Positions 2,355 to 19,708 of a stretch of 34,181 bases of DNA are shown one piece after another; positions within the stretch are counted from its first letter, which is position 1, and every line of letters starts with the position of its first letter. Under the pieces are notes generated by a model. That model had not been told where the DNA came from, ran no database searches, and saw only the letters and a list, made by a program, of their open reading frames with translations. Origin of the DNA: Bacteroidales bacterium (GTDB lineage Bacteria; Bacteroidota; Bacteroidia; Bacteroidales; UBA10428); contig JAFGEO010000007.1 of assembly GCA_016931575.1 (NCBI GenBank), forward strand, positions 1 to 34,181. Direction: 5' to 3'. Position numbers and translations under genes: made by a program.

Positions 2355-3359
2355 ATGAAGTTTCTTAAATTTGAATATAAAATAACCATATTTTACTTAC
2401 TGGCTGGAGGTCTGTGGATACTTTTCTCAGATAAGATACTTCTTATTCTGATAAATGATAGAACAGTATTAAGTGAATTTCAAACCTATAAAGGCTGGTT
2501 TTATGTTGTTGTAACCGCTATAATCTTATACTTTTTCATAAGAAAGCATTTGAATAAACGTCGGGATTTAGAAAGAAAATTACAGGAACACCAAAATCAT
2601 CTTGAGAAGATTGTTAAAATCCGGACTGTAGAATTAGAATCTACTATTAAACACCTTAAGGAAACTCAGTCGCACTTGGTTCAATCAGAAAAAATGGCTT
2701 CTTTGGGGCTTCTTACAGCAGGGGTAGCACATGAAATAAATAATCCTCTTAATTATATAATGGGCAGTTATTCAGGTCTGAAACTTGTTTTAAAAAAACA
2801 ACTTGATGAAGATGAAAAATTGAACAAGCTGCTCAAAAATTTAAAAATTGGTGTAGATAAAGCAGCTGGTATTGTTAAAGGCTTAAACCAATTTAGTCGG
2901 GATCAGGAAAGTTTTGATGAAACATGTGAAATCCATTCTATTCTTGATAATTGCTTAGTAATGTTGAACAGTCAACTTAATGGTCTTATTAAAATAGAAA
3001 GGGATTATGCAGAGGCATTACCTCCGTGTATTGGAAATGTTGGGAAACTTCATCAGGTATTTATTAATATTCTGACAAATTCAATACAAGCAATTAACAC
3101 AGCTGGTAAAATAAAGATTTCAACAAAAACTATTAATAATTCTATATTAATTGAAATAGCTGATACAGGTTGCGGTATCAGTAAGGAAGATTTACCAAAA
3201 ATATTCGACCCTTTTTTCACTACTAAAGACCCAGGAAAGGGCACAGGACTCGGATTGGCAATAACTTACAATATTATTAAAATGCATAATGGTCAACTGG
3301 ACTTTACCTCAGAGTTAACCAGCGGGACCAATGCAAAAATTATTTTACCAATAAAATAA
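2355..3359 (+). CDS. Membrane sensor histidine kinase (NtrB-like HisKA/HATPase)
   Basis: The protein has 334 residues. Two membrane segments (about 12-34 and 47-62) flank a short external loop; the motif [16 protein letters not shown] is typical of a common small-sensor N-terminus. A coiled coil (68-110) leads to a HisKA domain with [19 protein letters not shown], phospho-acceptor His126. The ATP-binding domain has the N box ([10 protein letters not shown]), [15 protein letters not shown] and GTGLGLAI. It autophosphorylates and presumably passes phosphate to the response regulator encoded five bases downstream. The start is ATG 2355; the longer frame from TTG 2211 adds an unconvincing hydrophilic extension. 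The external loop is too short for a classical ligand-binding domain, so the signal is unknown. Confidence 0.85.
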
Positions 3360-3364
3360 CCAGA

Positions 3365-3733
3365 ATGAAGAAGTTTAAAATATTGTATGTTGATGACGAA
3401 TTCATTAATCTTGAGCTTTTCGAAATTAGTCTGGGAATAAAATATCATGTTTTCACAGCTCATAATGGTATAGCTGGTCTTCAGGTTGTTGAAGAAAATC
3501 CGGATATTAAAGTAGTAATTAGTGATATGAAGATGCCGATCATGAATGGACTTGAATTTTTAAGAAAATTATGCACTAAACATTCAGAAATTTCATGTTT
3601 TCTTCTTACAGGATATGGCTTGACTCCAGAGATTAATGAAGCCATCAGGGAAGGATTAATATTAGATTGTATGAGTAAACCTTTTGAGATGGAACTGATA
3701 GACAAAGAGATACAAAGGGTGTTGAATAAGTAA
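3365..3733 (+). CDS. Single-domain response regulator (CheY-like)
   Basis: The protein has 122 residues and is a receiver domain only. The acidic pair is D10/D11, the phospho-acceptor is D54 in VVISDMKMP, the switch threonine is T82 (LLTGY) and the conserved lysine is K105 in MSKPF. No output domain is present, so it must act by protein contact or in a phosphorelay. It starts five bases after the kinase stop codon and is almost surely co-transcribed with it as its cognate partner. The gene is AT-rich like its neighbours. Confidence 0.88.
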   Translation: MKKFKILYVDDEFINLELFEISLGIKYHVFTAHNGIAGLQVVEENPDIKVVISDMKMPIMNGLEFLRKLCTKHSEISCFLLTGYGLTPEINEAIREGLILDCMSKPFEMELIDKEIQRVLNK

Positions 3734-3818
3734 CAACCGGAGCCAATAAATAGGAATACTTAAAAGATTCTAGCAAAAGTGAGCTGGGTGTTTTGCCATT
3801 AGCATCCTATATCACTAA

Positions 3819-3838
3819 CCCCGGTATTTATGCCGGGG
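3819..3838 (+). terminator. GC-rich hairpin after the two-component pair
   Basis: The arms CCCCGGTAT and ATGCCGGGG pair almost perfectly (one G-T) around a two-base loop, 86 bases after the response regulator stop. There is no clear T-run after it, so its action as an intrinsic terminator is uncertain. Confidence 0.4.
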
Positions 3839-3961
3839 GGATTGCCAGGTGTGCGAATTTTCTGTATTTTAGGGAAATAAACAAAACCATGCTCACACAC
3901 TACCATTGCCTGAGTTGGCGTTAATGACAGGAACTGAACTGCGCTAAAATCACAATTGAAA

Positions 3962-4708
3962 ATGAAATATAATTTACTACTGGTTTTCCTGATTAATTCT
4001 TTGATTAGTTATAGTCAGGAATATGTTATTGAAATAGCTCAATTAACCGAAACAGTTGATAATAAGTATGTATCTGAAATTCCAAGATTAAAGGATAAAT
4101 CCAATGAAAGTAATCCTGTTGTTGAAAGGATTAATTCACAGATTCTTGACTATTTTATGATTAATAGTTTTATACAGAGCGAATTAGAGGAATTTAGATG
4201 GTACGAAGTTAGTTATTCGTCCGAGATAAAAGACAGTATTCTGTATATATCATTTGCCGGTGAATATTATGGTGCTTATCCAAATTACGTTTCTGATGAA
4301 TTATTTTTTAATTTAAAATCCGGGGAAGCCTTAACATCAACTTTTATCCCGTTTCAAGCTTTATTCACATTATCAGGATATCAGGATTTTCTCAATAAAT
4401 ACTGGCTTGAAGGAGTGAAAAATGAGTTTGAAATCGCTATGGAATGTGCCGGATTTGAGCCTTACTGCAGTTACTACGATATTAATTATGAAGTTGACAC
4501 CAACACCTTGTCCATTTCTCTAACAAATGACTGTTATCCACATGTGGCTCAGGGCTGCTCACCAACTTATAGTAAATCTATTGAACTTGATTCAGTTAAG
4601 CGATACCTAAACAATATCGGGAAATATCTGCTGTTGGAGAGTAATTACATGACCATGACTCCGATTGAGAAATTTCAAGAGAATGAAAGATTAAAGGAAA
4701 AATTTTAA
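3962..4708 (+). CDS. Secreted protein with DUF3298/RsiV-like domain
   Basis: The protein has 248 residues with a signal peptide (LLLVFLINSLISYSQ, cleaved near residue 19). The segment FAGEYYGAYPNYVSDELFFNLKSGEAL resembles the core of DUF3298/RsiV-type periplasmic domains, where a Y/H-G-x-x-P-N motif precedes 'N(L)-K-(S/T)-G'. Four cysteines in the C-terminal half (ECAGFEPYC, NDCYPHVAQGC) could form disulfides outside the cytoplasm. The start is ATG 3962 in the context ATTGAAAATGAAAT, which is the same context seen at 514. Function is unknown; by analogy it may be an envelope sensor or binding domain. It converges on the DUF5916 gene. Confidence 0.55.
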   Translation: MKYNLLLVFLINSLISYSQEYVIEIAQLTETVDNKYVSEIPRLKDKSNESNPVVERINSQILDYFMINSFIQSELEEFRWYEVSYSSEIKDSILYISFAGEYYGAYPNYVSDELFFNLKSGEALTSTFIPFQALFTLSGYQDFLNKYWLEGVKNEFEIAMECAGFEPYCSYYDINYEVDTNTLSISLTNDCYPHVAQGCSPTYSKSIELDSVKRYLNNIGKYLLLESNYMTMTPIEKFQENERLKEKF

Positions 4709-4900: not shown

Positions 4901-7531
4901 TTACAGTGATAGCCAGTAATTGAGCTTTATCATAAATACATTGGTGCCGCCTACGGAATTTAAATTCCTGAAATCTTCACTGATTGTCGGCATGTTAATG
5001 CTTTCGTCGGCGGTCTTGTCGTGCGACCAGACCAGGTGCAGCACCGAGCCGGGCAGGTACTCCCAGCGGAAAATAAAGTTTGTCCTGATCTGCCCAAACA
5101 TAAAATCAGGGTTGTCAAAACTGTTGGGTACTGTTGTGAGGGGAAAGTACATGGAGTATTGATTCGCCGGCGTCAGGTTTTCAATGATGTCGGAGGCATC
5201 AATATACCGGTTTTCTGTTTCCCGGGCACCGGCATCATCCACAAAATAAAATTCAGAATAGTGACCGACGGAATAATACGGGCTTCCATAGAATTGCAGG
5301 GACATTTCAGGCGTGATAAAAAGTTCGGCCCTCAGGGTGAAGGACAGGGTCTGACGGTTCAGGCAGCCCATCAGGTAGTAAGTTTCCTCACCACTGCTCA
5401 TCTGGTCGATATAATGGTATTGCGTCACATCATCGTTATAGCTGACGAAGGGGGATATCCTGATCCGGCTGATCGGATGCCAGTTTATTTCCCCGTGGGC
5501 AAACCATTCCCGGGAGTCTTCATTTTGTGTGATGGAATAATGCACCCCTCCGTTGAAATTCAGGTTTTTCGACTGGTTGCTGTTTATGTGGAACGAAAAG
5601 TCATTGTGGCCATTCATCCAAAGGGCAGGGCCTCCCCGAAGTTCCCTTGTCTCGAAACTGGCGAACGCGATACTCCAATCAGCGCTAACGCTCCAGAGGT
5701 TGTTAAACTGGGTACTGGCCCCAATTCCGGCTTCCGAATTGGTCAGCTCACCGCTAAAGCTGAGGGAGTTGGACTGATAGGCAGAAACATTGAATGAGCG
5801 TGAGTATTTGTGGGGCTCTGTTTCCCGGTATTGCAGGGAAGTGGTTTGGTACATGTAGTCCGACTGCCGCAGGTAGCCGATGTCGTTCAGGTCAAGTCCC
5901 GGGGAAAGCCAGCTGATCTCCTCATTAAAGCGCCATTTGCCGCCCTTTTTTCCCCCTTCAATCGTTCCGCCTGTTCCGCTTAGGCTGGTCTGGCTAACAG
6001 CATAGTCCTTTTCCAGGTGTGTGGCATCCGGTCGCTGATACAGGTGTACATACGATTCCTTCAGTAGCTGAATGGAGGACTCACTACCCCTGAGTTCCGA
6101 GAAAATGACTTTTCCGGCGACATAATAGGTCTTGTTCCTGAAATTGTGCTCAAAGTCCAGGCCCCCGGTATAGGCTTCCTTATGTTGTTCCCCGGCGATA
6201 CGGCTATCCATGTTAATGGCATGGCTGCTGGTGAACACTCCGCCCAGCATGGTGTTGCCATGATTCTTTTCCTGCATGACTCGTGCAACCAGGAAATTCC
6301 GTTGCGGGGCAACCAGGGTATCGGTTATGTCCTCATCGGGACGGTATATACGGGCAAACTCGGATGCGGTGACACTCTCCATCAATCCCACCGATAAGCC
6401 CTTATCGGTTTTACCTGTGACTTTTGCTGCTCCTATAATGGTTGAGCTGGTCGGTACCTCAGCATAGTGGTCTCCTTCAATATCGGGGATGTGCGAGGGT
6501 GCCCCGCCAATGCGCCTTGAATAGTATATAGGGTTGCCGCCGATATCATAGTCGAAGATCTCCCTTCCTTCCATGAAGAAGGGTCGCTTCTCATCGTAAA
6601 ATGTTTCATAGGCCGTGAGGTTCAGTACGGAAGGGTCCGCCTCTACCTGGCCAAAGTCAGGATTGATGGTTGCATCGAGCGTGAAATTGGAAGACAGGCC
6701 TATTTTGGCATCAAAACCACCATTGAGAATCATATCTTTCGTTTTTCCGTAAGGATTTGACTGATCAGCAGCTTTTGGAAGATAACCGGAGACAACATAG
6801 GGGAGGAGCTCCACCTGCCGGGAATTGCGGATCCCGGATAATCCGTTAAGCTCGCCAAAACGGAACACCATAGCCGGAGCGTTAATGGGGATCAGGATCC
6901 ACTGGCTTTCTTCATTTTTGCGATCGATCCAGCGCCAGATATGCAATCCCCATTTCTGCTCTTCCTTATTGGTGTACCTGACCTGGCTGAAGGGAATCCT
7001 GAACTCAGCCGTCCAGGCGGAGTCTTCCAGGCTCGTCTTTCCTTCCCAGACTGCATTCCAGTCCATGTCAAATTCATAATCCCCCTTATGCTTCAGGTCG
7101 ATCTTTTGTCCAGCTGCGCTGAGGTTGAACTCGAAGGCGGTTTTATCATCATTGTAGGTGTCCAGTGCGATGCCGGTCATATCTCCACCGAAATTGTCCC
7201 TGCCTGAAAATTTCAGGCTCATTTTTTCGGGCTCGTGATCATAACAGCGGATGGCTACAAAAAGGTTGTTGGTGTTATATAAGATCTTGATTTCGGTAGG
7301 GAAGGAAGGCAGCGTATCCTCCAGGGGTACCTGTTGTACAAAATCACCGTGCCACTCACCCTCGTTCCAGCATGCATCGTCAAGCTTTCCGTCGATGCGC
7401 GGTGGATTTTCAGTTGAGATGGCAGTGTAGTAGCGCATGGGAATGCTGTCATTCTTTTTCTGACCAGAACATAAGGTTGAGGTCAATAGAAAAGCCAGCA
7501 CAAGGGTGCGTGTAAGTGAAATATTTTTCAT
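4901..7531 (-). CDS. DUF5916 outer-membrane protein with CBM9-like domain
   Basis: The protein has 876 residues with a signal peptide (LTRTLVLAFLLTSTLCSG). Residues about 40-225 form a carbohydrate-binding family 9-like domain: PPRIDGKLDDACWNEG, then FVAIRCYDHEP and TAEFRIPFSQVRY with the conserved tryptophan-rich strands. The remainder matches the DUF5916 family, with FTLDATINPDFGQVEADPSVLNL and the ERRPFF-like block EKRPFFMEGREIF around residues 310-330, followed by amphipathic strands ending in aromatic-rich FMIKLNYWLSL, as expected for a beta-barrel. It probably sits in the outer membrane; the ligand is unknown, though relatives occur near peptidase and glycan genes. It is monocistronic, more GC-rich than the genes to its left, and has a -7-like element just upstream. 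Confidence 0.85.
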   Translation of the reverse strand: MKNISLTRTLVLAFLLTSTLCSGQKKNDSIPMRYYTAISTENPPRIDGKLDDACWNEGEWHGDFVQQVPLEDTLPSFPTEIKILYNTNNLFVAIRCYDHEPEKMSLKFSGRDNFGGDMTGIALDTYNDDKTAFEFNLSAAGQKIDLKHKGDYEFDMDWNAVWEGKTSLEDSAWTAEFRIPFSQVRYTNKEEQKWGLHIWRWIDRKNEESQWILIPINAPAMVFRFGELNGLSGIRNSRQVELLPYVVSGYLPKAADQSNPYGKTKDMILNGGFDAKIGLSSNFTLDATINPDFGQVEADPSVLNLTAYETFYDEKRPFFMEGREIFDYDIGGNPIYYSRRIGGAPSHIPDIEGDHYAEVPTSSTIIGAAKVTGKTDKGLSVGLMESVTASEFARIYRPDEDITDTLVAPQRNFLVARVMQEKNHGNTMLGGVFTSSHAINMDSRIAGEQHKEAYTGGLDFEHNFRNKTYYVAGKVIFSELRGSESSIQLLKESYVHLYQRPDATHLEKDYAVSQTSLSGTGGTIEGGKKGGKWRFNEEISWLSPGLDLNDIGYLRQSDYMYQTTSLQYRETEPHKYSRSFNVSAYQSNSLSFSGELTNSEAGIGASTQFNNLWSVSADWSIAFASFETRELRGGPALWMNGHNDFSFHINSNQSKNLNFNGGVHYSITQNEDSREWFAHGEINWHPISRIRISPFVSYNDDVTQYHYIDQMSSGEETYYLMGCLNRQTLSFTLRAELFITPEMSLQFYGSPYYSVGHYSEFYFVDDAGARETENRYIDASDIIENLTPANQYSMYFPLTTVPNSFDNPDFMFGQIRTNFIFRWEYLPGSVLHLVWSHDKTADESINMPTISEDFRNLNSVGGTNVFMIKLNYWLSL

Positions 7532-7704: not shown

Positions 7705-7712
7705 TACCTTTG
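7705..7712 (+). promoter_or_regulatory. -7 promoter element for the attenuator/aminotransferase transcript
   Basis: TACCTTTG is an exact TAnnTTTG match. It lies 27 bases before the leader peptide ATG, so transcription would begin near 7718 and include the leader, the terminator and the aminotransferase. A weak GTTTAC stands where a -33 element would be expected, at shortened spacing. Confidence 0.55.
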
Positions 7713-7739
7713 TTGCCATCAATCGGTTTTGAAAGACAA

Positions 7740-7811
7740 ATGAAGCAAACTTATTACATAGTCGTCATTAGCATTATTCTCGTGGTCGCAGGTATTCTGC
7801 CGTCTCCATAG
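7740..7811 (+). CDS. Leader peptide rich in branched-chain amino acid codons
   Basis: This is a 23-codon frame, ATG 7740 to TAG 7809-7811. It begins MKQTYY and continues IVVISIILVVAGIL before PSP. Residues 7-20 contain five Ile, four Val and two Leu: 11 of 14 positions are branched-chain. This resembles the ilv leader peptides of enterobacteria, in which ribosome stalling at Ile/Val/Leu codons controls transcription of the operon behind it. The stop codon sits inside CCATAGGG, which can pair with the 5' arm of the terminator at 7844. The alternative reading is a tiny membrane peptide, since the same residues are hydrophobic; its position between a promoter and a terminator favours the leader role. 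Confidence 0.65.
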   Translation: MKQTYYIVVISIILVVAGILPSP

Positions 7812-7876
7812 GGTGTGCTTTAGACTATGCTGAAAACATACAGCCCCTGTGGAAGAAACCGCAGGGGTTTTTTTTT
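7806..7876 (+). promoter_or_regulatory. Transcription attenuator: antiterminator/terminator switch
   Basis: CCATAGGG (7806-7813, spanning the leader stop codon) is complementary over 8 bp, with one G-U, to CCCTGTGG (7845-7852) in the 5' arm of the terminator. If a ribosome stalls on the upstream Ile/Val/Leu codons, CCATAGGG is free and can sequester that arm (antiterminator). If the ribosome reaches the stop codon it covers CCATAGGG and the terminator can fold. The pairing is seen directly; the mechanism is inferred from known amino acid operon attenuators. Confidence 0.6.
7844..7876 (+). terminator. Intrinsic terminator of the attenuator
   Basis: The arms CCCCTGTGG (7844-7852) and CCGCAGGGG (7859-7867) form a 9-bp stem with one G-T pair around the loop AAGAAA, followed directly by nine Ts (7868-7876). 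This is a textbook intrinsic terminator located 56 bases upstream of the aminotransferase start, with no preceding gene except the leader peptide. Confidence 0.88.
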
Positions 7877-7931
7877 GGACGCTTGCCGGAGAAATGAGAA
7901 GCAGGAAATATTCACACTAAAAAGCCATAGC

Positions 7932-9140
7932 ATGCAACAACCATCAACAACAGAACAGGGCTTTCAGGTTGAAAGCTTTTTCGCCGAAAGAATGAAAAAT
8001 ACCCCACGATCGTTTATCCGGGAGATCCTGAAAGTAGCGGTCAGCGAGGAGATCATCTCCTTCGCCGGGGGATTGCCAAATCCGGAGATTTTTCCGATGG
8101 AGGCCATTCGGGAGGCAGCTGTTCGCGTGCTAGGTCAGCGGGGCAGGGAAGCTCTTCAGTATAGCAATTCGGAAGGCTACCTTCCGCTTCGCCGGTATAT
8201 TTCGCACTGGTATCATGAAAATGCAGGGATGGAAGTTTCCCCTGAAGATATCCTCATTACCTCCGGCTCACAGCAGGGACTGGATTTGATCGGCAAGGTG
8301 GTTATCAACCCGGGCGACCGGATTATCATCGAAGAGCCTGGGTACCTGGGGGCCATTCAGGCTTTCTCCCTTTATCAGCCTCAGTTTATTCCGGTCCCCC
8401 TGAAAACTACTGGCATGGATCTGGAGGTTCTTGACCGGGAGCTTAACTCTGGAAATCCCCGGATGATGTACCTTATCCCCGATTTTCAAAACCCTTCCGG
8501 CATCAGCTATTCCAGGGAAGTAAGGGAGCAGATCGCAGAAAGGATCCGCGGAAAGAATATCCTGCTGGCGGAGGATACACCCTATTCCGATATCCGGTTT
8601 TCAGGGGAACGGGCTCCCGGATTTTACCCGATGCTTCCGGAACAGACCATCTTGCTGGGGACCTTCTCTAAGACAGTGGTTCCGGGTTTCAGACTGGGAT
8701 GGATCGTTGCCAGGAAGGAACTGATGGATAAGCTGATCATTGCCAAACAGGCTGCCGATCTGCATACCAACATTTTCACCCAGCAGCTGCTGTATGACTA
8801 CCTGATTAATAATGATATAAAAAGCCATATCCACCTGATTTCCAATTTGTATGGACGGCAGTGCCATGCCATGCTGGAGGCTTTGAAAACCTATTTCCCG
8901 AAAGATGTACAGTACACCGTTCCGAAAGGGGGGATGTTCCTGTGGGTTACCCTGCCGGAGGGGCAGTCGTCCCTGGAATTATTTAACCGCGCCCTGGAGC
9001 ATAAGGTGGCTTTTGTACCCGGCAATCCCTTCTATGTTGACGGGTCAAAGCACCGCTCTACGTTGCGCCTGAATTTTTCCTGTTCGGATGAGGCAACGAT
9101 TTTTGAAGGGGTAAGGAGGATTGCCGGGGTTTTAGGGTAG
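7932..9140 (+). CDS. PLP-dependent aminotransferase, class I/II (LysN/2-aminoadipate-type)
   Basis: The protein has 402 residues, fold type I, without the GntR domain of MocR proteins. Visible landmarks are ISFAGGLPNPEIFP near the N-terminus, ITSGSQQGLDLI, PDFQNPSG (cofactor-ring Asn187), AEDTPYSDIRF (Asp215, Tyr218), GTFSKTVVPGFRLGW (Schiff-base Lys247, phosphate-binding Arg254) and LRLNFS with the substrate-carboxylate Arg near the C-terminus. Relatives include Thermus LysN and broad-range transaminases that accept aminoadipate, leucine and other hydrophobic amino acids. The Ile/Val/Leu-rich leader upstream suggests a branched-chain substrate or pathway here. The start is ATG 7932; the frame is open back to 7827, but that stretch is the terminator itself. 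A decayed partial copy of its 3' end lies at about 15383-15612. Confidence 0.85.
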   Translation: MQQPSTTEQGFQVESFFAERMKNTPRSFIREILKVAVSEEIISFAGGLPNPEIFPMEAIREAAVRVLGQRGREALQYSNSEGYLPLRRYISHWYHENAGMEVSPEDILITSGSQQGLDLIGKVVINPGDRIIIEEPGYLGAIQAFSLYQPQFIPVPLKTTGMDLEVLDRELNSGNPRMMYLIPDFQNPSGISYSREVREQIAERIRGKNILLAEDTPYSDIRFSGERAPGFYPMLPEQTILLGTFSKTVVPGFRLGWIVARKELMDKLIIAKQAADLHTNIFTQQLLYDYLINNDIKSHIHLISNLYGRQCHAMLEALKTYFPKDVQYTVPKGGMFLWVTLPEGQSSLELFNRALEHKVAFVPGNPFYVDGSKHRSTLRLNFSCSDEATIFEGVRRIAGVLG

Positions 9141-9284: not shown

Positions 9285-9707
9285 TCATTGTACGGACTCA
9301 ACATATCTCTTGAAATTATTAAGAATTGCCTGCCACCCGGATCTTTGGAGTTCCTCTGAATTAGTACCTTCAGCTTCGAACGATTCAATCAGTTTTACAT
9401 TCTTCCCTTCTGTCAAAAAGTTGATGGAGACGGCTCTGCCATCTGATATTTTATAAGTGATCAATTCTTTATCCTTAACTTGCAGATATGTTCCTGTAAA
9501 ATCAAAACCTATCCCTCCGTCTTTAGCTTCCATTCTCCAGTTTAATTCTCCATCCGGTCTTAAATCATTAACAGCGTTTGGACAACACCATTCTTCTGAA
9601 GCAAAATTCCAATTTACAATATGTTCCGGTAAAGTCCATAAATTCCAGACAAGTTGTATCGGGGCTTCAATAGTAGTTTCAATTGTAATCGTTACATTTA
9701 GACTCAT
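9285..9707 (-). CDS. SRPBCC/AHSA1-family protein
   Basis: The protein has 140 residues. It shows the START-like fold signature of the Hsp90-ATPase-activator (AHSA1) family: TIEAPIQLVWNLWTLPEHIVNWNFAS at the start, then EWCCPNAVNDLRPDGELNWRMEAKDG, GFDFTGTYLQV and a C-terminal helix GWQAILNNFKRYVESV. Such proteins bind hydrophobic ligands; the ligand is unknown. The start is ATG 9707, fitting the usual family start; the frame is open for a further 36 codons of unlikely sequence. The gene is transcribed toward the aminotransferase and is AT-rich. Confidence 0.8.
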   Translation of the reverse strand: MSLNVTITIETTIEAPIQLVWNLWTLPEHIVNWNFASEEWCCPNAVNDLRPDGELNWRMEAKDGGIGFDFTGTYLQVKDKELITYKISDGRAVSINFLTEGKNVKLIESFEAEGTNSEELQRSGWQAILNNFKRYVESVQ

Positions 9708-9845
9708 AGTTATCCGGTTTAAAGAGTTTATTTTGTGTAAAACAATTATTATAATCAGTTGTTTAGGAAGTTTTACCTGCTGGTTAATGAACAGACATTT
9801 TTGATTTCCGGGCATAAAAAAATAGTTCTCATTGGATCTAATGTT

Positions 9846-17818: not shown

Positions 17819-18391
17819 CTATGAACTTCTGAGCCGGCTCAGGGAAACCTGTGAGATGCCCAGGTAGGACGCAACATGGTGAAGGGGAACCCGGTTTTCC
17901 AGGCCCGGGTAGAGCTTCCTGAAAAAGTTTAGCCTTTCTCGTGCGGGCTGTGTTACAAATATTTTCTCTTTTTGTATCCTGAGTCGGAGTTCCGATTCAA
18001 CGATCGCATAGGCAAAGTTCCGGATGTCAAGGTATTTGTTGATCAGGGCGCTGAAGCCCGCGGCACTGAACAGGAAGTATTCGCAATATTCCAGTGCCTG
18101 TACCGAGTAGATTTGTTTTCCGTTGACGTTGCGGATGAAGTAGGGCTCCATAACCTGCGGGCCGTTTAGAAATGAAATATTCACTTCCCGGTCCCGGCTG
18201 TCACTAAGCAGGTTCCTGGCTACCCCGCGGATCAGGAAAAGCTCATACCTGAATTCCTGGGATTCCCTGGTCAGGAATCCCCCTTTTTCAGTTTCGCGGT
18301 ATTCCAGCAAGGGAAGCAGCTCATCCCAGGAGCTTAAGTTACTGCTGATGATTTGCTCAATGTAGGATTTAAAGACCAGGAGATTATCCAT
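17819..18391 (-). CDS. Crp/Fnr-family transcriptional regulator
   Basis: The protein has 190 residues. The N-terminal cyclic-nucleotide-binding-like beta roll covers about residues 20-110 (LLPLLEYRETEKGGFLTRE, ELFLIRGVARNLL, REVNISFLNG). A long dimer helix follows, then a C-terminal helix-turn-helix (PLHHVASYLGISQVSLSRLR). This is the compact Bacteroidota type; the canonical cAMP contacts are not evident, so the effector is unknown. Its start overlaps the end of the DUF6483-like gene by 8 bases, indicating translational coupling, and it may control its own operon with the hydrolase. Confidence 0.85.
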   Translation of the reverse strand: MDNLLVFKSYIEQIISSNLSSWDELLPLLEYRETEKGGFLTRESQEFRYELFLIRGVARNLLSDSRDREVNISFLNGPQVMEPYFIRNVNGKQIYSVQALEYCEYFLFSAAGFSALINKYLDIRNFAYAIVESELRLRIQKEKIFVTQPARERLNFFRKLYPGLENRVPLHHVASYLGISQVSLSRLRSS

Positions 18392-18809
18392 ACTTTGCTA
18401 GTTCGTTGCGGATCGAGAGAATCTTTGCCTGGCGCTCAATGGAGAAGGTATTTCCCTTTTCATCGACATGGCTGAGCAGGGCAGCGGCAGTCTCAAGGAA
18501 CCTGATTTTCCTTTCTGTATCGGATTGTGTGCCTGCATGCAGCAACAGCAACTCTGCAAACAAGTCAAGGTTCTCAATATGCAATCTCTTCCCGCAGGTG
18601 ATCCATTCAGCTACTTCTTCAACCGGAACCTGCATCATCTCGGTCAGCTCAAAGTCGAAATGTTCGGTAAGCATTTCATTTGTGGCCTTTTCCATCTGCT
18701 GTTCCTCATCCGAACTTTCTTCTTTCAACCCTGTTAATTTTCTGATCAGTGCTGTAAGCACTTGTGCCATCATTTGAATTTGCCGGAGTAAATAATCTCG
18801 TTGTTCCAT
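18384..18809 (-). CDS. DUF6483-like helical protein
   Basis: The protein has 141 residues, all helical, beginning MEQRDYLLRQIQMMAQVLTALIRKL. This start resembles the DUF6483 family of small cytoplasmic proteins, whose function is unknown. The middle is acidic (KEESSDEEQQMEK) and the C-terminal half resembles paired TPR-like helices. It is the first gene of a minus-strand unit with the Crp-type regulator, overlapping it by 8 bases. It is divergent from the aldo/keto reductase, with only 65 bases between the two start codons. Confidence 0.6.
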   Translation of the reverse strand: MEQRDYLLRQIQMMAQVLTALIRKLTGLKEESSDEEQQMEKATNEMLTEHFDFELTEMMQVPVEEVAEWITCGKRLHIENLDLFAELLLLHAGTQSDTERKIRFLETAAALLSHVDEKGNTFSIERQAKILSIRNELAKYG

Positions 18810-18874
18810 GCAAAGGGATTGTATGAATGAGTATATTCGAAAATATTAGTAGCTGTTAAAAGTAGTAATAAGTT

Positions 18875-19708
18875 ATGAAGATATCAGATATAAACGGAAG
18901 CGTAAGCCTGGCCAATGGGGTGAAGATGCCTTATTTGGGGCTGGGTGTTTTTGAAGCTGAACAGGGAAATGAAACGGTGCAAGCCATTCACTGGGCGCTG
19001 GAAGCCGGCTACCGGCACATCGACACAGCTGCCCTGTACGGGAATGAAGAAAGTGTTGGAAAGGCCATTCAGACCAGTGGCATTCCACGCGAAGAGATTT
19101 TCGTAACCACCAAGGTCTGGAATTCGGATCAAGGCTTTCATTCAACGCTGGATGCCTTCAGCCACAGTCTGGAGAAACTGAAGCTTGATTATGTGGACCT
19201 TTACCTGGTGCACTGGCCGGTCCGCGATAAGTATGTCTATACCTGGGAGGCACTGGAAGAGCTGTACGCAGGGAAACTGGTCAGGGCAATCGGCGTGAGC
19301 AACTTCCTGAGGCACCAACTGGAAAGGCTCATCAACCGAAAGGGCATGCTCCCCATGGTGAACCAGGTCGAATTTCATCCTTACCTGGTACAGCCGCAAC
19401 TTCATAAGTTCTGCCGGAAAAACAGCATTCAATACCAGGCCTGGACCCCTATCATGAAAGGGCAGGTGAATGAGATCCCGCTTTTGCAGGAGCTGGGTAG
19501 GAAATACAGTAAAACACCTGTTCAGATTACCCTGCGCTGGGACCTGCAGAAAGGCGTCGTTACCATTCCCAAATCGGTCCGGAAGGAAAGGATCATAGAA
19601 AATGCATCGATCTTCGATTTTGAGCTTACACCGGAGGAAGTTAAAGCAATTGATGGTCTGGACCGGCATTCACGTATCGGCGCCGATCCGGATAATTTTA
19701 ATTTCTGA
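18875..19708 (+). CDS. Aldo/keto reductase
   Basis: The protein has 277 residues, the usual length for the family. It has the TIM-barrel signatures GYRHIDTAALYGNE (Asp50, Tyr55), VTTKVW (Lys80), LVHWPV (His113), i.e. a complete catalytic tetrad, plus VRAIGVSNF, MVNQVEFHPYL and the NADPH-binding IPKSVRKERI loop. It reduces small aldehydes or ketones with NADPH, in the style of 2,5-diketo-gluconate reductases or methylglyoxal reductases. The substrate cannot be set from sequence. It is followed by a hairpin terminator, so it is probably monocistronic. Confidence 0.92.
   Translation: MKISDINGSVSLANGVKMPYLGLGVFEAEQGNETVQAIHWALEAGYRHIDTAALYGNEESVGKAIQTSGIPREEIFVTTKVWNSDQGFHSTLDAFSHSLEKLKLDYVDLYLVHWPVRDKYVYTWEALEELYAGKLVRAIGVSNFLRHQLERLINRKGMLPMVNQVEFHPYLVQPQLHKFCRKNSIQYQAWTPIMKGQVNEIPLLQELGRKYSKTPVQITLRWDLQKGVVTIPKSVRKERIIENASIFDFELTPEEVKAIDGLDRHSRIGADPDNFNF

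Follow-up and report, generated by a model that had tools for sequence, protein, structure and literature searches.

Attenuation in the ilv and leu operons of enterobacteria is exerted by the leader attenuators ilvL, ivbL and leuL, in which translation of a short peptide decides whether transcription continues. Within Bacteroidota, the phylum of the DNA studied here, strong clues for leader-peptide attenuation before amino acid biosynthesis operons have been described in Flavobacterium psychrophilum (PMC9723704, in extract), and leader-like short open reading frames (ORFs) are reported in 5′ UTRs of Bacteroides thetaiotaomicron (PMC7366714, in extract). The term 'ilv' appears 0 times in the main texts of these two papers; their element lists are in supplements, and overlap with the elements described below is possible. 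PMC4833913 cites a comparison, published in 2010, of how amino acid operons are attenuated (Lopatovskaya et al.). Tandem attenuators, with two short ORFs in one leader, are known from mgtCBR of Salmonella (PMC3641672, in extract), whose operon encodes a virulence protein and a transporter of Mg2+ and does not serve amino acid biosynthesis. The literature searched, mostly outside subscription papers, yielded no earlier account of a branched-chain attenuator set in Bacteroidota, which does not establish priority.

Here we analyse a stretch of 34,181 nucleotides from a Bacteroidales bacterium (contig JAFGEO010000007.1), hereafter the window. It very probably carries a ribosome-mediated transcription attenuator that senses the charging of branched-chain tRNAs and controls a single aminotransferase gene.

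Anatomy of the candidate attenuator

A reading made from the sequence alone had proposed a promoter motif, a leader peptide, an antiterminator and a terminator in this region, and all of these parts are present in the right order (Table 1). The motif TACCTTTG matches TAnnTTTG, which we take to be the Bacteroidota −7 promoter element; TACCTTTG occurs in two plus-strand copies within the window, and the TAnnTTTG motif also precedes many of the leaders in relatives. The proposed 23-codon leader, with 11 of 14 consecutive residues being Ile, Val or Leu, is found as described (5 Ile, 4 Val and 2 Leu). The terminator had been given a 9-bp stem and nine Ts; the nine Ts stand, but the stem is 10 bp long, the first T being its last base, and the hairpin has a computed energy of −19.7 kcal/mol. 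Also borne out is an 8-bp antiterminator, in which CCATAGGG (7806–7813) in the stop-codon region pairs with CCCTGTGG (7845–7852) in the terminator 5′ arm through eight base pairs, one of them U-G. A ninth pair, T7805–A7853, lengthens this duplex.

Table 1 Features of the candidate attenuator and its predicted target gene in the window
Feature	Position	Strand	Details
Promoter-like TACCTTTG	7705–7712	+	Predicted; matches TAnnTTTG
Leader ORF, ATG to TAG, 23 codons, MKQTYYIVVISIILVVAGILPSP	7740–7811	+	Predicted frame; translation read from DNA
Segment 1, leader codons	7757–7794	+	7770–7785 with 7806–7819; 7757–7763 with 7823–7829
Segment 2, antiterminator 5′ arm TCCATAGGG	7805–7813	+	Includes leader stop TAG (7809–7811)
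Segment 3, antiterminator 3′ arm CCCTGTGGA	7845–7853	+	Overlaps terminator 5′ arm
Intrinsic terminator	7843–7876	+	Stem 7843–7852/7859–7868; 6-nt loop; T tract 7868–7876
Putative regulated gene, class I/II PLP aminotransferase, 402 aa, LysN/KAT-II-like	7932–9140	+	PF00155

The aminotransferase starts at 7932, whereas an ATG at 7827 falls within the attenuator. The terminator sits between TACCTTTG and this gene, and the window sequence between 7877 and 7931 holds no TAnnTTTG. Because the upstream neighbour (4901–7531) lies on the minus strand, the plus-strand terminator has no upstream gene to end. The downstream neighbour (9285–9815) is also on the minus strand, which makes it most likely that the window aminotransferase is transcribed alone.

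The 1:2 protector hairpin of classical attenuators is also present in the window. In RNA that begins at the leader start and does not yet include the terminator, the Ile/Val codons pair with the arm that holds the stop codon. Specifically, the arm 7804–7813 pairs with upstream codons with a mean probability of 0.79, a value equalled or bettered in 5 of 500 controls in which the upstream part was shuffled. The corresponding probability ranges from 0.26 to 0.97 in 14 other attenuators tested. When each of these was compared with 150 upstream-part shuffles, six were reached by at most three shuffles and five by 9 to 22; the weak cases are leuA, G007 and G014, reached by 32, 46 and 60 of 150, with a probability in G014 of 0.26 versus 0.24 in its shuffles. 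If the transcript stops at 7858, its fold is the antiterminator (−18.5); RNA whose first base is 7806, 7812, 7819 or 7824 takes up the terminator fold. For the full-length RNA, the terminator is the more stable structure by 2.3 kcal/mol, which means that antitermination would depend on the order of synthesis. The layout in the window is thus that expected of a full classical 1:2, 2:3 and 3:4 attenuator.

If this model is correct, plentiful Ile and Val would allow the ribosome to reach the leader stop and cover segment 2, whereupon the terminator (3:4) would form and transcription would end near 7876. When Ile or Val is scarce, the ribosome would stall at the Ile/Val codons and open the 1:2 hairpin, and the freed segment 2 would pair with segment 3, blocking the terminator so that the aminotransferase gene is read. 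Failure of translation would leave both 1:2 and 3:4 to form, and transcription would end. We infer this regulatory response, like the substrate of the enzyme, from sequence.

As a single-sequence observation, the antiterminator pairing is moderately unusual and not decisive alone: 144 of 10,000 dinucleotide shuffles (1.4%) pair the stop region with the terminator arm as well, and 86 of 13,656 other window stretches (both strands, overlapping) pair the terminator arm equally well. The full combination is rare. We scanned 2.71 Mb of both-strand sequence for a short ORF rich in Ile, Val and Leu with a terminator and an antiterminator, which gave 67 rows. All 39 rows with a duplex of −12 kcal/mol or lower precede aminotransferase, ilv or leu genes; many of the scanned loci overlap, such that the 39 rows represent a smaller number of sites and are not independent, and the loci were fetched around such genes, such that the scan tests specificity within loci and not in random genome. 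Rows weaker than −12 kcal/mol lie mostly elsewhere. The window itself yields two rows, the attenuator site (−18.4) and another at −2.4. A second scan of 0.35 Mb (loci L210 and up, likewise overlapping and fetched around such genes) behaved in the same way. The detector missed the leaders of G450 and G153 and gave that of G006 a low score; all of these were picked up by reading and then re-checked. No Rfam family matches the window at gathering score, and sub-threshold matches to NsiR1, anti-hemB and a toxic sRNA, all spanning the terminator region, are unrelated and were judged to be chance.

Conservation and covariation among relatives

We examined the region upstream of the aminotransferase or its operon in 27 genomes. 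Fourteen came from matches at E ≤ 1e-60 among 60 relatives, ten new ones from 15 matches at 1e-100 among 393 genomes of the order, and the last three from searches at 1e-110 (two new from four matches in 71 genomes, one new from two matches in 20); two other searches contributed no further genome. A leader, a terminator and the pairing between them are found in 17 of the 27. The attenuator accompanies the gene alone in G000 (the window), G002, G005, G006, G012, G014, G153, G239, G319, G397, G450 and G476, and accompanies ilv genes in G007, G051, G439, G026 and G144. Where the aminotransferase is at least 49% identical to that of the window, 15 of 18 genomes have it, versus 2 of 9 where identity is lower. 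The short frame and the CCATAGGG pairing, whose conservation in orthologues the sequence-only reading had named as its check, are thus both kept in most close homologues. No recognisable attenuator was seen upstream in the other ten genomes (G008, G011, G025, G046, G052, G139, G399, G409, G084 and G280). Three of these homologues (G139, G399 and G409) share 52–56% identity, and G409 has an Ile/Leu-rich frame with no clear terminator.

A second terminator lies ahead of the first in 12 of the 17 (G002, G005, G006, G007, G012, G014, G051, G153, G397, G439, G450 and G476). This extra terminator has its own checked leader in ten of the 12, the first-copy leader being uncertain in G002 and G006; one terminator was seen in the window, G026, G144, G239 and G319. 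All 39 leaders counted, including those of ilvD and leuA, proved on re-reading of the DNA to be complete frames with a terminator after them, and 32 of them have a duplex of −12 or better. The seven weaker duplexes belong to the gene-adjacent copies of G006 and G153 and to the first copies of G005, G153, G397, G450 and G476. The serial attenuators of four loci, L216 (G397), L225 (G450), L217 (G153) and L226 (G476), differ in terminator and pairing sequence while keeping the layout, and so do not resemble recent duplicates. In the same four loci, the antiterminator of the first copy is the weaker by a simple duplex score.

More widely, 80 named loci were kept from 586 relatives, and four of them gave a row at −12 or lower: L056, L066, L068 and L078, all Bacteroidota. 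From their identical leaders, these are taken to be the same as G144, G051, G005 and G439, respectively. The remaining 76, from many phyla, gave no scan row at this level, indicating that the aminotransferase subfamily is not always under branched-chain regulation.

The antiterminator also covaries. In an alignment of nine proximal attenuators (A2), 95.1% of antiterminator cells are paired, compared with 25–58% when the arms are slid, a comparison that favours the unslid version on cells paired because the arms were placed with knowledge of the window pairing. At three of the nine antiterminator pairs, both partners have changed (U-A to C-G, C-G to A-U and A-U to G-C), each in two sequences, and terminator pairing covers 87.7% of cells in the nine. 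With arms placed by eye, 101 of 110 positions pair in the aminotransferase/ilvB class (11 operons), as do 105 of 110 in the ilvD/leuA class (11 operons). The stop codon falls inside the 10-nt arm in 7 operons of the former class, the remaining four having it immediately after the arm, and in all 11 of the latter.

A search with model R1 returned 13 matches in 11 of the 60 genomes. Eight are training sites (the ninth training genome is outside the 60), two are first tandem copies outside the model (G002 and G007), and one, in G017, is a newly found single leader, rich in Val, ahead of ilvB and of an ilvN-like gene that scores below the ilvN cut-offs. The last two, G018:C80 (E 0.005) and G055:C127 (E 0.048), we regard as false, each lying within the span of a long opposite-strand ORF. 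The conserved frame and pairing, the covariation and the 1:2 hairpin support the layout of ribosome-mediated attenuation that had been proposed from the window alone.

Linkage to ilv and leu operons and identity of the enzyme

Both the aminotransferase gene and the attenuator layout are linked to branched-chain operons. An ilvD–aminotransferase–ilvB–ilvN operon stands under one Val-rich leader in G026 (L018) and in the MAG ADurb.Bin217 (G144; L056/L210), the genes of the latter being 75–82% identical to their G026 counterparts. In G007 (L017), Breznakibacter xylanolyticus DSM 6779 (G051; L019/L066) and G439 (L078/L224), ilvB and then the aminotransferase follow two Val-rich leaders. IlvD, IlvB and IlvN of G026 and IlvB of G007, G051 and G439 score above NCBIfam cut-offs. 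At L057, the aminotransferase precedes ilvB, and no leader was seen in 420 bases. Since the aminotransferase lies inside ilv operons in five relatives, its branched-chain assignment, put forward earlier for the window gene, rests on synteny plus the leader, which together argue for such a role.

The genome to which the window belongs carries the same layout before ilvDBN (C31, leader MIQNLLIVVVILVSVLKTLN) and leuACD (C45, leader MTRNISILNSILLLGILQKPE), in each case with the stop codon in the antiterminator arm; its LeuA, LeuC and LeuD are above the NCBIfam cut-off. Such a leader precedes ilvD in 9 of 10 fetched ilv loci, the tenth (L192) having given no ilvD match. Leader composition follows the pathway. 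In 12-residue cores, the Val fraction is 0.43 in ilv-linked leaders versus 0.00 in two leuA leaders, and the Leu fraction is 0.21 versus 0.42; the leuA leader of Breznakibacter, for example, is MTKVNSLYILSILLCILLWVRD. These relatives of the window within Bacteroidota hold a set of branched-chain attenuators, before ilvDBN, leuACD, ilvB–aminotransferase and stand-alone aminotransferase genes, many with two serial terminators.

Two further features of these operons were noted. A second acetolactate synthase large subunit is encoded at L017:1602-3290, L019:7876-9537, L224:4170-5855 and L149:3112-4800; all four are best matched by PRK08155, below its cut-off and above that of TIGR00118, and only at L149 does an ilvN-like gene follow. 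The aminotransferases in the ilvDBN operons (L018:12842-14209 and L210:5874-7223) and at L057 (~3080–4420) have an N-terminal extension of ~45 residues, MRMSK.YDAFVTWASGIK.P.NKKILDQMAAWS..., that is absent from the stand-alone aminotransferases looked at.

The window aminotransferase matches PF00155 (Aminotran_1_2) at 4.3e-36 and has no other domain, PF12897 being below cut-off. Its PLP lysine, K247 of FSK, is invariant in all nine sequences compared. The nearest solved relatives (1x0m, 3aov, 1wst and 2egy) comprise an aminotransferase II homologue, PH0207 (3aov), a multiple-substrate aminotransferase (1wst) and LysN (2egy), and the gene is accordingly annotated here, by similarity, as a LysN/KAT-II-like class I/II aminotransferase. 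None of the best 25 of 64 matched NCBIfam models reaches its cut-off. Class I/II aminotransferases of this subfamily carry general names only, because sequence does not give the substrate, whereas leader codons and ilv operons offer a hint that is independent of sequence similarity.

The IlvE-type class IV domain PF01063 is not in the window aminotransferase. PF01063 genes are separate loci and occur in 60 of 60 relatives searched, the window's own genome included, such that the enzyme would be an additional and not the sole candidate transaminase; we therefore reject the idea that a second transaminase is there because IlvE was lost. Most likely, the enzyme would carry out the last, amino-transfer step of branched-chain synthesis beside the class IV (IlvE-type) aminotransferase.

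A quick tree was built with 60 rows, of which 33 come from the 80 named loci and 27 from elsewhere; L134 was excluded because of an internal stop, and the remaining named loci because of their size or because they were the same genome with a different name. In this tree, 13 proteins linked to an attenuator or to ilvB, the window's included, group together (SH-aLRT 94, short of the 95 mark). Aminotransferases embedded in ilvDBN operons fall in a second group and G012 and G014 in a third. Branched-chain control may therefore have been acquired by this enzyme class on more than one occasion; three changes are needed on the tree, its starred branches force only one, and fewer events are possible.

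The DUF5916/CBM9-like gene at window 4901–7531 is divergent from the attenuated aminotransferase; a homologue of 50% identity adjoins the aminotransferase in G002 (L016:9103-11718), and homologues of 24–26% lie two genes from the unattenuated aminotransferase in G280 and G084 (L218:7996-10431 and L219:7986-10433). An aldo-keto reductase and a small MEQRDYLL.. protein are encoded together at window 18384–19708, 9 kb from the aminotransferase, and their homologues (58% and 33%) directly adjoin it in G002 (L016:5921-7214). The window also encodes a protein with a tocopherol cyclase domain (PF14249) at 508–1644.

Alternative readings and comparison with known systems

A possible, if doubtful, alternative keeps the same attenuator and makes the enzyme mainly an alanine–valine (or alanine–leucine) transaminase, the stand-alone leaders sensing Ala plus branched-chain residues. 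Alanine is present in the Ile/Val/Leu core of the leader in 9 of 12 stand-alone aminotransferase operons versus 1 of 17 ilv/leu operons (Fisher p 0.0002, genome kinship ignored), and at least two alanines in 5 of 12 versus 0 of 17 (p 0.007, likewise), with G002 and G006 entered with one leader each. Such cores include VIAAAI (G012 and G014), VAVAV and AAVVVLA (G450), and ALALALLL and AALLLALLL (G153). This enrichment suggests alanine sensing and a reaction of the alanine–valine type, and we treat it as a lead. However, the p values disregard the relatedness of the genomes, one base change turns Val to Ala, the single Ala of the window leader lies just outside the core, and G006 and G397 have no core Ala. 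A described enzyme of this kind is AvtA, the alanine–valine transaminase of Escherichia coli, which takes the valine oxo acid and has a monocistronic gene (PMC4094517, in extract). AvtA belongs to a different subfamily, and the window enzyme scores far below the cut-off of the valine–pyruvate transaminase model NF006967 (94.2 bits versus 402), although that model covers another subfamily.

A more specific proposal, which we hold to be rather unlikely, is that the stand-alone serial leaders act as a switch that reads branched-chain residues as well as alanine, the two substrates of the enzyme. If so, a branched-chain/alanine transaminase gene would be opened only with the relevant tRNAs uncharged at two serial attenuators, the Ala-to-Val/Leu codon ratio of each leader would be tuned to the local substrate of its enzyme, and the substrates of aminotransferases would be readable from leader codons.

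It is improbable that the enzyme mainly serves 2-aminoadipate or aromatic or other amino acids, in a LysN or KAT-II role with incidental branched-chain control. The presence of LysN, PH0207 and the multiple-substrate aminotransferase among its nearest solved relatives is what such a role would predict, but branched-chain leaders occur in 17 of the 27 genomes, five of those inside ilv operons, and attenuator-bearing or ilv-linked enzymes occupy three places in the tree. A very improbable reading is that the short frame is accidental or encodes a membrane peptide, that the hairpin is a plain terminator and that the gene is transcribed from a promoter further downstream. Although the leader is hydrophobic and the shuffles described above match its pairing at a low rate, this account conflicts with the antiterminator covariation, the lack of an upstream plus-strand gene for the terminator to serve, the lack of TAnnTTTG in 7877–7931, and the position of all 39 strong scan rows before aminotransferase, ilv or leu genes, repeated on 0.35 Mb more.

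The reading that we favour, a branched-chain attenuator before an aminotransferase gene, invokes a mechanism that is already known; its target and the doubled terminators are less usual. Like ilvL, ivbL and leuL, the system combines a short leader rich in branched-chain codons, alternative 1:2, 2:3 and 3:4 pairings and an intrinsic terminator, and it recurs before operons of the branched-chain pathway. In the ilvB–aminotransferase operons (G007, G051 and G439), ilvB scores best against the acetolactate synthase model PRK08155, below its cut-off. Unlike in ilvL, ivbL and leuL, the target in the window is a class I/II aminotransferase, and its relatives often carry two serial terminators.
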